A stretch of 53,942 nt of DNA from a virus: the IMG/VR virus record IMGVR_UViG_3300047470_000541, positions 1 to 53,942 of that record; one strand, 5' to 3'. A program made the translations under genes and the position numbers. Below, piece by piece: positions 6,073 through 10,920 of this stretch (within the stretch, counting starts at the first letter, position 1; each line of letters starts with the position of its first letter). The notes beneath the pieces were generated by a model. It searched no databases. It had not been told where the DNA came from and saw only the letters and a list, made by a program, of their open reading frames with translations.

Positions 6073-6840
6073 TCATGCGAACATGTCGATTTGCGGCGCC
6101 GGCGTGTTCACCCTGATCAGCTCGGCATCCAAGCGAGATTTCGCGGTAGCGAAAATCGCTTCGTCCTGCTCGATTCCCAGGAACCGGCGGTTGAGCTGAA
6201 GGCAGGCGACACCGGTGGAACCGCTTCCCATCGTGTTATCCATTACCACTTGTCCCGGGTTGGTGTAGGTGCTGATCAGGAACTTCATCCAGGCGACTGG
6301 CTTCTGCGTTGGGTGAAAGCTTCCGGACTGCTTGTCGCTTGAAAAGAACTGAACCGAGCGCGGGTACCGGTCTGTTGAGTCGTATTCGGTAAGGCGCAAG
6401 GCCTTCCCGTAGCACTCGGAATCAACTGTCTTCCGCTAGCTGGTCTTGCGCTCATGCCCGGTCGACATCTGCGGGTTGTACACCGGTTGCTGGCGGTAAA
6501 AGACCTGTGCGCTTTCGTGTGCTCGGAGCGGCTGCTTCTTGGCGTTCAGAAACCCGGTGGCGTTGCCTTTTTCCCAGATCCATTCATACCGGTAGTGCCT
6601 TGGGTTGCTGGCCACCACCAGCGAAGCGAACGGCTGGGCTGCACACAACACAATGGCCGCCTCGGGCTTGGCGATTCGTAGGTACTCACGCCAGAGTGTG
6701 TCGAAGGGGATGATCGCATCCCACGCGCACTGGGTCGTGCCGTAGGGCAGATCAGCGAGGATCAAGTCGACACTGTTGTCCGGCATGGTTTTCATCACCT
6801 CAAGGCAATCGCCGAGGTACAACCAAGGCTCCATGGCCAT
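6073..6840 (-). pseudogene. DNA adenine/N4-cytosine methyltransferase interrupted by in-frame TAG
   Basis: The reading frame runs 6840 to 6073 with one TAG at 6436-6438. The first part (134 aa) has 'YLGDCLEVM' and the catalytic 'ADLPYGTT' (DPPY-type). The second part has 'SFHPTQKPVAWM' and the AdoMet loop 'NTMGSGSTG'. The order DPPY then FxGxG suits a beta-class enzyme of about 255 aa. Both halves lie in exactly the same frame (start distance divisible by three), and codons flanking the TAG read on smoothly. A single point mutation, or amber readthrough, explains it. A TTG at 6399 could restart translation but would lack the catalytic motif. Confidence 0.85.
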
Positions 6841-6860
6841 TCGCGGAATCTCCTGATGGG

Positions 6861-8021
6861 TTATTTCTTCGAAAAGGTCTTGGTCAAGGCGCCGTTGACT
6901 GCATGGCCGCGCCTCAGAACAACATTTGCCAACTTCTCGCGGTCCTTCTCGCTATGACTGGCCTGACTGAGCAGGCCGAAATAGCTGTTGGCAGTCTCCC
7001 GCAGATCCTCGGCCGGTGCAGCAGCGGTGCGCTTTATGGCCTGAGCCAGCGAACGCTTGCGGGTGGTTCGCCGCCACGGCTTGATGATGTGACCAACGAA
7101 GTCGACGCCGCGGTCGACCGGTTGCAGGATGGTCTTGGTCGGGTTCAGCTTGGCGCCCAAGCTGGGAAGGAAGGCTTCGACCTCCGCCAGCCAGGCGTTG
7201 AGCTGTTGCGGCGACTCATGCAAGAACACGAAGTCATCGACGTAGCGGACATAATGCTTGGCGCGGAGCGTGTGCTTGGCGAACTGGTCCAGTGCGTCGA
7301 GGTAGACGTTGGCAAAGAACTGCGACGACAGGTTGCCGATGGGCAGGCCGAGATGTGCAGGCTGCGCGGTGAGGCGCTTGTGCTGCGGCACCCGGTTAAA
7401 CAGATGGGCCGCGCTGCGCACCTCGTAGTCTTCGCGAGGGTCGTGCATCAGGATCTGTTCGGCGAGTGCCAGCCACCAGGGCTCGGTGATCTTGGCGGCC
7501 AGCTGCCGACGCAGGACCTGTTTGTCGATGGCGACGAAGAAGTTGGCCAGGTCGAGCTTGAGATACCAGCAGGGCGTCGACCAGTTCTGGCTGGCGCTGC
7601 GGATCTTCGCCTCAAGTCGTTTCGCAGCGTACAACGTGCCGCGCCCGGGGATACAGGCGCAACTGTCCGCTATGAAGCTGGCGTAGAAGCGCGGTGCCAC
7701 ACGGTTGTACAGCAGGTGGTGGACGACGCGGTCCCGGAACGCAGCGGCCCAGACTTCTCGGGCTTTTGGTCGGGTGACCACGAAGCATATCGAACGGCCT
7801 GGCCGGTAAGTGCCGGCGATCAGGTCGTCGTGTAGACCGATCAGATTGCGTTCCAGATCCATTTCGAAGGCCAATGCACTGGCGCTGTTGCGCTTCGTGC
7901 GCCGGCAGTCGTAATAGGCCTGAACCAGTTCGCTGAACGGGTAGGGACCAACAGTCGAATCTGCGGACGGGGCGGACGCGGAGCTCGTTGTTCTTGTCAT
8001 CGTTGTTCTGATTGCCATCAT
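6861..8021 (-). CDS. Diversity-generating retroelement reverse transcriptase
   Basis: 386 aa at the earliest ATG. It copies the template repeat RNA into adenine-mutated cDNA that replaces variable repeats. Palm motifs: 'YLKLDLANFF' (Asp157), the DGR-typical 'GLPIGNLSSQ' (225-234) and catalytic 'YVDD' (260-263), then 'GVDFVGH'. No maturase or endonuclease domain follows, unlike group II introns. The start is unusual: ATG 8021 lies inside the template repeat, so about 20 N-terminal residues are template-encoded in another frame; no clear ribosome site is seen. The next in-frame Met (residue 54) would cut into the conserved part. Last gene of the DGR cassette. Confidence 0.93.
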   Translation of the reverse strand: MMAIRTTMTRTTSSASAPSADSTVGPYPFSELVQAYYDCRRTKRNSASALAFEMDLERNLIGLHDDLIAGTYRPGRSICFVVTRPKAREVWAAAFRDRVVHHLLYNRVAPRFYASFIADSCACIPGRGTLYAAKRLEAKIRSASQNWSTPCWYLKLDLANFFVAIDKQVLRRQLAAKITEPWWLALAEQILMHDPREDYEVRSAAHLFNRVPQHKRLTAQPAHLGLPIGNLSSQFFANVYLDALDQFAKHTLRAKHYVRYVDDFVFLHESPQQLNAWLAEVEAFLPSLGAKLNPTKTILQPVDRGVDFVGHIIKPWRRTTRKRSLAQAIKRTAAAPAEDLRETANSYFGLLSQASHSEKDREKLANVVLRRGHAVNGALTKTFSKK

Positions 8022-8061
8022 CGAAGTTCATGTTGAATGCGTTGTTGGCGGAGCGCTGCGA
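7961..8061 (-). repeat. DGR template repeat (TR)
   Basis: 101 bp. In the coding (minus) sense it carries 30 adenines, many as AAC codons when read in the target-gene frame (that frame gives '...NAFNMNFDDGNQNNDD...'). It matches VR1 (8660-8760) with 15 differences, 14 at template A, and VR2 (9354-9454) with 18 differences, 17 at template A. The GC-rich end near 7961 corresponds to the initiation (IMH-like) segment; each VR has one non-A change there. Overlaps the first 61 bp of the reverse transcriptase ORF. Confidence 0.96.
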
Positions 8062-8232
8062 CCAATCGTGCTATCTACGTCGCCAAGCCGAAGGCAGAAC
8101 CGATCAGCGAGGAAACTGCGCGAGACCAGCACGGACGCTTTAGACCGTCGGTATCTCTGATGCGCATGGCGGTGACCCAGAGGTCAGCGGCACGACCAGA
8201 TTCAATTCGCACAGACCTGAAAGCCGTGACTC

Positions 8233-8589
8233 TCAGGTGGCGGGCGCGGTTGGGATTGAGCGTTTCCAGGCAGACGCCTGCTTGCCGATGGAGGTGGTGA
8301 CCTCTATCGCGGCGGCGTGCTGCCCGACACTGATGAACCGACTCTCTTTGAAGAGCCGCATCAGGAACTCGATGACCTGGACCTTCTCAATTAGCAAGGT
8401 CAGGTGTGGACTCTTGTCCCGGGTCGAGTTGGCCCGGGCAATCAACATCAGCACGTCGATACATTCATCGATGACGCGCTTCCCGAGAGACTGCTTGAGA
8501 TCTCGGGGTATGTTGCGAGTGAGGTTCGTGGCCATCTGCAGCAGGCCGAGCGAAGCCTTGTAGATACTCAAATCCGTGTGCATTCCCAT
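8233..8589 (-). CDS. avd: DGR accessory variability determinant (Avd-like)
   Basis: 118 aa, all-helical and basic, beginning MGMHTDLSIYKASLG. Length, helix pattern ('LSIYKASLGLLQMATNL', 'RVIDECIDVLMLIARAN', 'LLIEKVQVIEFLMRLFKE') and place between target and template match Avd four-helix-bundle proteins. In Bordetella phage BPP-1, Avd forms a pentamer that binds the reverse transcriptase and template RNA. GGAGAG lies about 9 bases before the ATG. 171 bp separate its stop from the template repeat; I see no gene there. Confidence 0.88.
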   Translation of the reverse strand: MGMHTDLSIYKASLGLLQMATNLTRNIPRDLKQSLGKRVIDECIDVLMLIARANSTRDKSPHLTLLIEKVQVIEFLMRLFKESRFISVGQHAAAIEVTTSIGKQASAWKRSIPTAPAT

Positions 8590-8611
8590 GATGGGTGCTC
8601 TCCAAGAGCAA

Positions 8612-8629
8612 CCGGCCGCAGGCGGCCGG
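8612..8629 (-). other. GC-rich hairpin after VR1 (candidate DGR hairpin)
   Basis: CCGGCCG/CGGCCGG perfect 7-bp stem with a 4-base loop, 31 bp past the end of VR1 and before avd. No T tract follows, so it is a poor terminator. In BPP-1 a hairpin/cruciform just downstream of the variable repeat is needed for efficient target recognition; this one is in the equivalent place. Confidence 0.5.
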
Positions 8630-8643
8630 ATTAAATTAACGAA

Positions 8644-9264
8644 TTATTGAATAAGCTGACTGCGGACGGGGCGGACGCGGCGCTCGCCGTACTTGCCACC
8701 GTAGTACTGAGTGCCATCATCGAAGAACATGCCGAATGCGTTGCGGGCGGAGCGCTGCGAACTCGACCAGTACCAGGTGTCCCGGAAGGCTTCGGCACCG
8801 CCAGCTTGAAAGGCAGTAATCGAGGTCTGTTCTGGCGACTCTTCGCTGTACAGTTGGCCAGCCGGCTCGCTGTTCGGGTTGTCACCATCGCGGCGGCCAG
8901 CCCAATTCTCTTCGGTGGTCGGCTTGAAGTGGCGATACTGCAGCTCCTGCACGTCGCGCGCCGGGATCGCCCAGTCTGTGAAACCGCCGATATCCAGAGC
9001 CAGCACCTGCTGCGCCAGTTCGCTACCGGCGGCTGCCATGGCTTCAGTATTGGCACGGCTGTTGGTGAAACTGTCGGCGCCTTCGATCTTCTCGCCGTAC
9101 TCTCCCCAAGCACCGCTTAGTTCGTACGCGGCGCCCGCGGTGATGTTCAGGTAGCGGTTACCAGTGTCCGGATCGTGGGTGATCCCGCTGAAGAACCCGC
9201 CGCCGAATGGCTGGCCGATTTCCGGAATGGTCATCGCTGGAGTTGCTTGGGCTGCTGCGGTCAT
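8644..9264 (-). CDS. DGR target protein 1, C-type-lectin-like variable domain
   Basis: 206 aa from the ATG at 9264, chosen for its AGAGGAAAG ribosome site over one 27 bp upstream. The C-terminal part ('FRDTWYWSSSQRSA...RRVRPVRS') is the DUF1566/CLec-like fold used by DGR targets, where surface residues can vary without breaking the fold. The last codons are the 101-bp VR1: relative to the template frame, several Asn codons became Arg, Gly, Phe, Thr and Tyr. The N-terminal half (PFGGGFFSG, GNRYLNITAGAAYEL) is unlike known fibre modules. No signal peptide. Ligand and location unknown. Confidence 0.88.
   Translation of the reverse strand: MTAAAQATPAMTIPEIGQPFGGGFFSGITHDPDTGNRYLNITAGAAYELSGAWGEYGEKIEGADSFTNSRANTEAMAAAGSELAQQVLALDIGGFTDWAIPARDVQELQYRHFKPTTEENWAGRRDGDNPNSEPAGQLYSEESPEQTSITAFQAGGAEAFRDTWYWSSSQRSARNAFGMFFDDGTQYYGGKYGERRVRPVRSQLIQ
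8660..8760 (-). repeat. DGR variable repeat 1 (VR1)
   Basis: 101 bp at the 3' end of target gene 1, aligned without gaps to the template at 7961-8061. 86 of 101 bases are identical. 14 of 15 differences are at template adenines (coding strand), changed to G, T or C; the remaining one is a T-to-G in the GC-rich 3' segment. Confidence 0.96.
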
Positions 9265-9290
9265 GGTCTTTCCTCTTTTCGAAGGCAACA

Positions 9291-9309
9291 AAAAAGGCGC
9301 TGCTGCGCC
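9291..9309 (-). terminator. Hairpin and T-run after VR2 gene
   Basis: GGCGC-AGCA-GCGCC stem-loop followed by six T on the minus strand, between target gene 2 and target gene 1, 45 bp past the end of VR2. Works on paper as an intrinsic terminator; by position it could also serve as the DGR hairpin for VR2. Confidence 0.6.
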
Positions 9310-9340
9310 CGGTGCCGATCAAGAACGAATGATTGAAAGA

Positions 9341-9949
9341 TTAAATAAAGAATCTGCGGACGGGGCGGCCGCGGAGCTCGTGGCCCTTGTCACCGTAGCC
9401 CTGATAGCCACCAGCGAAGGACATGTAGAACGCGACGTAGGCGGAGCGCTGCGATGAAGACCAGTACCAGGTGTCTTTCGCGAACAATTCCGGCACATTC
9501 AACCAGCAGTGGTACAGCTCGCCGCAGGCGGGCAGGTAGAAATCATCGTGGCCGTCAGCTTGGTGCTCGGCGCAGGCGTCTGCTGCTGGATGATCGTCGC
9601 GATCATCGGCGTACAGTGCTTGGGTATTGGCGAGGCCATCGGTCTTGCTGGTAGCCTCAGACTCCTTGCCTCGACCGCCCCACTCATGTTTGCCGAGGTC
9701 GTCCTTGGCGATGATCAGGTAATGCGCCGGAACATCGCCGCGCGCCGCTACCAGGCCGCCATTGAACCCGCCTTGTCCGGGCCAGTATTCGCCGAGCGCC
9801 GGAATAGGGCCTGATGCAACTGCTTGAACATTGGCTGCTGGCGGCAGTGCCTGGGCAAGCATGCCAGCCATTAGCAGCTGAACCATGCGTTCGGACGTGC
9901 CCTTGATCTTGATGCCTTCCGCTTCAATAGAGATCGTATTGGCTTTCAT
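9341..9949 (-). CDS. DGR target protein 2, C-type-lectin-like variable domain
   Basis: 202 aa from the ATG at 9949 (GAGGGAT ribosome site). The N-terminus MKANTISIEAEGIKIKG and 'MVQLLMAGMLAQAL' differ fully from target 1. The C-terminal domain ('DDFYLPACGELYHCWL', 'DTWYWSSSQRSAY...RGRPVRR') is again DUF1566/CLec-like. The final 101 bp are VR2, with Tyr, Val, Ser, Ala, Gly and His replacing template-encoded Asn and Asp. First gene of the DGR cassette. The middle contains an acidic, His-rich stretch. Partner and location unknown. Confidence 0.88.
   Translation of the reverse strand: MKANTISIEAEGIKIKGTSERMVQLLMAGMLAQALPPAANVQAVASGPIPALGEYWPGQGGFNGGLVAARGDVPAHYLIIAKDDLGKHEWGGRGKESEATSKTDGLANTQALYADDRDDHPAADACAEHQADGHDDFYLPACGELYHCWLNVPELFAKDTWYWSSSQRSAYVAFYMSFAGGYQGYGDKGHELRGRPVRRFFI
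9354..9454 (-). repeat. DGR variable repeat 2 (VR2)
   Basis: 101 bp ending target gene 2, gap-free alignment to the template with 83 of 101 identical. 17 of 18 differences lie at template adenines (coding strand); the other is a T-to-G near the GC-rich end. Its substitution pattern differs from VR1, so both were mutated independently. Confidence 0.96.
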
Positions 9950-10012
9950 CGGTATCCCTCGTGGATGAGTAAGATTGTTCGTGATCGATTGCCGTGACGT
10001 CACGCTAAATCG

Positions 10013-10261
10013 TCACGGAGTACAAATGTGCTCTTGTAGGCTTTCGTCAGACATTCGATCCGCGGCCCAGATGAGCCGCGACACCACGTCTTGCTCTTCC
10101 GTGATGTCGAGCCGTGACATGAGGCTTTTCAGGCGGGCGTCATCGTTGTGGTAGAGGTCCAGCGATATGCGGCGAGAAAGTAGGCGGGCGAGACGTTCGG
10201 TTTCGGACTGCTTGTCCCGGTCGCGTTTCTCCTGCTGACGCTGCGCGGGTGTCTTGGCCAT
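10013..10261 (-). CDS. Hypothetical basic helical protein
   Basis: 82 aa beginning MAKTPAQRQQEKRDRDKQSE, a charged helix, then 'RRISLDLYHNDDARLKSLM' and 'EEQDVVSRLIWAADRM'. This resembles small phage RHH-like or coiled-coil proteins. GGAG lies 5 bases before the ATG; the stop of the upstream gene is 2 bp away. The final codons contain a dyad motif also found at 3831-3848. Function unknown. Confidence 0.6.
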   Translation of the reverse strand: MAKTPAQRQQEKRDRDKQSETERLARLLSRRISLDLYHNDDARLKSLMSRLDITEEQDVVSRLIWAADRMSDESLQEHICTP

Positions 10262-10263
10262 AT

Positions 10264-10920
10264 TCACTCCGGCTGCTTTGGCTCTTTTGCGATGAACACG
10301 GGCCTGGGTCCACCGCGACCAGTCTTGGGATAGTCGATTTCGAACTTGTCCAGGAGGCGACTGAAGGCCCGATAGTTGACCCCGAGCTTTTCGGTGGCTT
10401 GATTGCGGGTCAATCCGAGTTCTTTGAACGCCTTGATCCTCTCGGCATTCTTCGCATCCCTGGCTTCGTCTGGCATCCAAGGGCGTAGGTTTGAGGTGGG
10501 GGCATAACTGGATTTTTTGAAGGAGAAGCCATTTTGCTTGGCGATTGAGTGCAGTTTGCGCCGGTCCATACCGGTGTGTGCCATGGCTTCGGCCTGGGTC
10601 ATGTTTGCCGCGAGATTCCTGATGAGTTCTATCAGGTCGGCCTTGTCCTTGGCGCGTTGTGCAATGCGCTCTTCACGTTCGATATCGCGCTGAGCCATCT
10701 TGTCGAGCCAGACCGTTGTTTCTGCTTTCGGTACGGGCTTTGGCATCTTCTTACGCGGCGGTGGTTCATGGCGCGCTGGGGGAGGCCTGAAGCTTGGCCC
10801 CTCCAACACCTCAATAGTCCCTCCTTTTCCGAGATAGGCCTCCTGAAGCAGGGCCAATTCGTGACGCTGAGGGTCGAGCTCCCTGACCATGTTCAGATCG
10901 TTGCTGATGTATGCGCTCAT
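10264..10920 (-). CDS. Putative DNA-binding protein with two HTH segments
   Basis: 218 aa. The middle is proline- and lysine-rich (RPPPARHEPPPRKKMPKP). It is followed by 'NMTQAEAMAHTGMDRRKLHSIA' and a C-terminal 'LTRNQATEKLGVNYRAFSRLLD', both HTH-like. Start overlaps the stop of the exonuclease gene by 4 bp, placing it in the recombination operon. Possible regulator or accessory recombination factor; not firmly identified. Confidence 0.6.
   Translation of the reverse strand: MSAYISNDLNMVRELDPQRHELALLQEAYLGKGGTIEVLEGPSFRPPPARHEPPPRKKMPKPVPKAETTVWLDKMAQRDIEREERIAQRAKDKADLIELIRNLAANMTQAEAMAHTGMDRRKLHSIAKQNGFSFKKSSYAPTSNLRPWMPDEARDAKNAERIKAFKELGLTRNQATEKLGVNYRAFSRLLDKFEIDYPKTGRGGPRPVFIAKEPKQPE

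Follow-up and report, generated by a model that had tools for sequence, protein, structure and literature searches.

A phage diversity-generating retroelement whose reverse transcriptase probably starts inside its own template repeat

Where does translation of the reverse transcriptase (RT) begin in a diversity-generating retroelement (DGR) whose template repeat (TR) runs directly into the RT gene? The question is raised by a complete DGR on the minus strand of the 53,942-nt stretch of DNA analyzed here (the window), a virus record from a Pseudomonas-type phage. The answer that we regard as very probable, judging from the sequence of this element and its relatives, is that one stretch of RNA serves both as template and as the 5' end of the RT coding region.

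On the minus strand, to which all features below belong, the element reads target gene 1, target gene 2, avd (accessory variability determinant), the structured RNA RT-15, the TR, and the RT gene. The TR (7961–8061; 101 nt, 30 of them adenines) was recognized by its repeat family and by adenine-specific mismatches to two variable repeats, VR1 (9354–9454) in target gene 1 and VR2 (8660–8760) in target gene 2, both of which align with it without gaps and lie at the 3' ends of their genes. The GC-rich CTCCGCGTCCGCCCCGTCCGCAG stretch is the 3' end of the TR. Mismatches fall at TR adenines in 14 of 15 cases for VR2 and in 17 of 18 for VR1 (31/33 together; the other two are T7982>G and T7976>G); across 138 DGRs, this holds for 98.3% of 3660 TR/VR mismatches. 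Target gene 1 (9341–9949) and target gene 2 (8644–9264; putative C-type-lectin family) are Lcl_C-like, with matches of 24.4 and 31.8 bits (E 4e-5 and 2e-7, respectively), both below the curated Pfam cut-off of 34.9. Each has a Shine-Dalgarno (SD) sequence at its ATG (9949 and 9264), while longer ORF calls reach GTG 10003 and TTG 9291. The avd gene (8233–8589) matches Pfam bAvd with 45.1 bits (cut-off 40). Some relatives (L015, L036, L072, L090) carry a third VR at a distance of approximately 2–3 kb upstream, and thus a third target gene for their TR. No promoter-like site was found on the minus strand in a scan of positions 6700–10300; a match at 7994–8021 was discarded, as it lies on the plus strand and is near chance level.

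The RT ORF (6861–8021; 386 aa) contains the RVT_1 domain (E 9.8e-19) and the motifs LPIGNLSSQ and YVDD. Its closest solved structure by sequence is 8ub7, a 328-aa RT (E 9e-36) that aligns with the brt sequence of phage BPP-1. Residues 1–20 are encoded by the TR. The N-terminal half has low AlphaFold confidence, with no helix predicted before residue 29.

The first-pass annotation had placed the first ATG of the RT at 8021, inside the template, and this coordinate is right, as is its count of 61 template bases encoding 20 residues in a frame different from that of the target protein: the interval from 8021 to 7961 holds 61 nt, or 20 codons plus one base, in the +1 frame relative to the target. 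It had also seen no in-frame start between the template and the region "GPYPF". Indeed, the codons leading from the TR end to the conserved RT core (GAT TCG ACT GTT GGT CCC TAC CCG TTC) include no in-frame ATG, GTG, or TTG, nor the near-cognate CTG, ATT, ATC, or ATA. On the other side, upstream starts are blocked by an in-frame TGA (8028–8030). Hence, the RT start must lie within the TR. The RT-frame ATGs available there are 8021, then 8018, which together form a tandem ATG ATG (8016–8021), and then 8000. The latter is found in nearly no other genome, and nearly all relatives have a threonine codon in its place. Of the tandem pair, 8018 is the more conserved, and it is, beside 8021, the likeliest start. 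Upstream of the TGA, the RT frame is open for approximately 50 codons, through RT-15 (8028–8182); this open frame stops 6 bases before ATG 8021, and termination-reinitiation is conceivable. In some relatives, the equivalent of the TGA is missing.

A longer RT, started upstream and translated through the entire TR, has some precedent: 17 relatives also offer an in-frame ATG upstream of the TR, the RT of Burkholderia phage Magia is annotated with a start at -177, and in phages VP58.5, ACA1, phiARM81mr, and BS-TP1 the TR is situated within the RT ORF. We nevertheless consider this reading extremely unlikely, because the TGA at 8030–8028 stands in its way, here as in most close relatives; an upstream start of the kind annotated in Magia is excluded here unless the stop codon is read through.

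Homologous DGRs were collected from 80 viral loci, 56 genome loci, and phage records, and their TR was mapped by an adenine-tolerant repeat scan. This yielded 138 elements with a mapped TR, the window included. At RT identities as low as 62%, no more than a few codons separate the TR end from the RT core in the mapped relatives. An RT-frame ATG that is not followed by a stop is present inside the TR in 133 of the 138 elements. The exceptions are L083, L084, and L141, where such an ATG occurs only after the TR; L139, with ATGs both before and after it; and L137, with one only before it. Since four relatives can start the RT after the TR, the overlap is not essential to the DGR of this family.

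The common in-TR ATG among the relatives is the counterpart of 8018, and the counterpart of 8021 varies. The middle base of the conserved ATG is the wobble base of an Asp or Asn codon in the target frame. Of 51 unique TRs without gaps, 50 have T there, whereas the other NAY codons in the TR mostly end in C; in the same 51 TRs, the wobble base one codon upstream is variable. A rival reading is that the ATG stems by coincidence from a conserved lectin motif (Asp-Asp-Gly or Asn-Gly) in the target frame, the true RT start being elsewhere or unimportant. The ATG does fall on a conserved motif of the target protein; moreover, AAC-rich TR frames rarely contain stops, and hence an open RT frame alone is unremarkable. 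However, these elements prefer GAC and AAC over the alternatives (1904:755 and 1535:279, respectively), yet the wobble base is almost invariably T. When target-frame codons of the TR were swapped for synonyms, with codon usage taken from the RT genes of these elements, an RT-frame ATG was expected in 34.1 of 69 unique TRs and observed in 66. Among lineage representatives, it was observed in 21 of 23 against 11.3 expected (P ~5e-6, treating the 23 lineages as independent; the ATG of L139 sits just past its mapped TR end, and the count is 20 without it).

Losses of the conserved ATG also coincide with the presence of other starts: another nearby in-frame ATG was found in 8 of 9 members lacking the conserved one, compared with 6 of 114 members that have it. 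The replacements lie just after the TR in L083/L084 and L141, at -9 in L139, further upstream within the TR (-87 to -90) in L129–L131 and L143, and just before the TR (-93) in L137; GTG occurs at -90 in L135 and at the conserved position in L119. Well supported branches of the tree force a minimum of four changes between presence and absence of the conserved ATG. Given in addition that this genome offers no other RT start, mere coincidence seems very improbable to us.

We also considered, and rejected, selection on the TR-encoded RT residues: diversity at positions that are wobble in the target frame and second in the RT frame is equal on the two sides of the start (0.163 before it vs. 0.162 after it), with no extra constraint, and thus only the start codon stands out. 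That the in-TR start codon is kept by selection across the clade is well supported by these comparisons, and, as the codon is retained far above chance, the double use of the template looks real. Of the two options that the first-pass annotation had left side by side, a template that is also coding is thereby favored, while a non-standard start downstream of the TR finds no candidate codon, and the relatives vary freely in that stretch.

How would ribosomes recognize such a start? Predicted pairing with the anti-SD sequence at the TR ATG is negligible (mean -0.4 kcal/mol, n=114, best -3.3), compared with -6.0 to -6.4 kcal/mol for avd and both target genes; of three further genes in the window, two have values of about -6 and the third -3.5. 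Relocated RT starts are heterogeneous in this respect (-6.1 in L141, -3.8 in L083, none in L139). In 43 divergent elements, predicted RNA structure along the locus is also at its minimum around the TR start, where 60-nt windows have about -7 kcal/mol vs. -12 to -20 elsewhere. With SD absent and the RNA at its least structured, our best guess is that the RT is initiated without SD on open, A-rich RNA. The TR presumably cannot easily carry an SD, as its sequence must encode the target. The brt gene of BPP-1 has no clear ribosome-binding site either, and adding one raised activity 100-fold (PMC12875486); by analogy, weak RT translation may be a general trait of DGRs.

The mechanism that we propose runs as follows. 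Ribosomes would start the RT without SD at ATG 8018 (or 8021) within the TR, which would provide unstructured, A-rich RNA for this purpose. The wobble base that creates the ATG leaves the target protein unchanged and would be held by selection for RT translation; the remaining TR-encoded residues would form an unconstrained tail, and the conserved enzyme would begin near residue 29. The same stretch of RNA, with RT-15 on its 5' side, would be the source of the A-mutagenized cDNA. Three elements of this scheme are our inference: functional initiation without SD in vivo, a part for RT-15 in templating, and a shared set of transcripts for translation and templating.

A bolder version, raised by the first-pass annotation as a possible built-in control, would turn the overlap into a switch, in which ribosome start in the TR and copying by the RT-Avd complex exclude each other, and a selected feedback limits RT supply or couples RT to template use. 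In 133 of 138 elements, the start codon does overlap with the template; in addition, no SD precedes the start, and weak brt translation limits the activity of BPP-1 reconstituted in E. coli (PMC12875486). At the same time, an RT start immediately downstream of the TR is available to L083, L084, L139, and L141, BPP-1 has 144 nt between TR and brt, and the data can be explained with no switch at all, by genome compaction together with the requirement for some start codon. We therefore consider a switch rather unlikely. Equally doubtful is its extension to a bifunctional DGR RNA in which exclusion between ribosome and RT-Avd would determine how fast hypermutation proceeds, and RT-15 would be the 5' equivalent of the 3' spacer of BPP-1. 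The preferred reading, a template that also carries the RT start, is useful in this context, as the balance between RT supply and template RNA in DGRs is poorly known. A clade with a start that appears to be fixed by selection within the template allows a clean test of this balance, since one or two wobble changes would remove the start and leave the protein meaning of the template unaltered.

RT-15 (Rfam RF03018) was identified at 8059–8249 as a full match (model positions 1–192; 179.6 bits, gathering threshold 82, E 1e-44). It abuts the TR on the upstream side and overlaps the 3' end of avd (8233–8249); it was found in the window and in all 17 of the 17 divergent relatives scanned. The match rests on the covariance model and not on the fold of the 356-nt RNA, whose overall folding is no more stable than that of shuffles (z = +0.8). 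On the 3' side, a structured non-coding spacer between TR and RT of the BPP-1 type is absent, the TR ending at the RT core. A hidden 3' spacer, i.e., an RNA constraint running into the RT gene, was rejected, as synonymous variation past the TR is ordinary from codon 10 onward (0.24 in the first 10 codons and 0.39 in the next, in a gene-wide range of 0.25–0.54). By analogy with BPP-1, where the spacer folds and recruits the RT-Avd complex (PMC12875486), RT-15 may play the role of this spacer from the 5' side and serve as a 5' scaffold of the DGR RNA.

Both VRs are followed by GC-rich hairpins, at 8612–8629 (30 nt after VR2; a 7-bp stem) and at 9295–9310 (about 40 nt after VR1). These hairpins, with stems of 5–7 bp and 4-nt loops CCTG and AGCA, are kept in many relatives. 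They resemble the target-recognition hairpin of BPP-1; in DGRs, the hairpin or cruciform downstream of the VR has a GC-rich stem of 7–10 bp and a 4-nt GRNA loop (PMC3240598), which the loops observed here do not fit. Alternatively, they could be terminators.

Overlap of TR and RT is itself a published class, structural group 3 of DiGReF (PMC3521204), and the window, with 61 nt shared at the 5' end of the RT gene, fits this layout. Among twelve other phage DGRs surveyed, the whole TR was found inside the annotated RT ORF in the VHML-type DGRs of Vibrio phage VP58.5 and Pseudoalteromonas phage ACA1, and likewise in Aeromonas phage phiARM81mr and Bacteroides phage BS-TP1. VP58.5 has no in-frame start after the TR, and its only in-frame ATG, GTG, or TTG precedes the TR and overlaps the avd stop. 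In the four loci concerned, L149 (3737–3865), L152 (3737–3865), L151 (3713–3848), and L153 (3713–3930), the RT N-terminus reads as the target lectin motif, e.g., RGGNWNNGSNAGLGALNLNNARSNSN. Taken together, DiGReF group 3 and these phages demonstrate that the layout is known and recurrent. The four phages differ from the window in that their RT N-terminus lies in the frame of the target protein, whereas here it is in the +1 frame. Further, DiGReF group 3 was defined on annotated ORFs, while here the in-TR start appears to be under selection and its RNA context, RT-15, is identified. In a partial search of the literature, we found no earlier statement that an in-template start is conserved by selection.

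The adjacency of RT-15 to a DGR template is new here, in that the Rfam entry names no DGR role, with partial coverage of the literature on RT-15. The RNA is also annotated in Pseudomonas phage Cruim01, and its full-length match adjoining the TR ties this Rfam family to a DGR template, suggesting that a DGR RNA can have its structured portion on the 5' side of the template. BPP-1 (mtd-avd-TR-brt) shares with the element in the window the order target-avd-TR-RT, a pattern of adenine mutagenesis, and an RT gene with no clear ribosome-binding site (PMC12875486); the GC hairpins after the VRs may be a further likeness. The difference lies around the TR, which is followed by a 144-nt non-coding spacer in BPP-1, whereas in the window it runs straight into the RT gene and the structured RNA is located on its 5' side.
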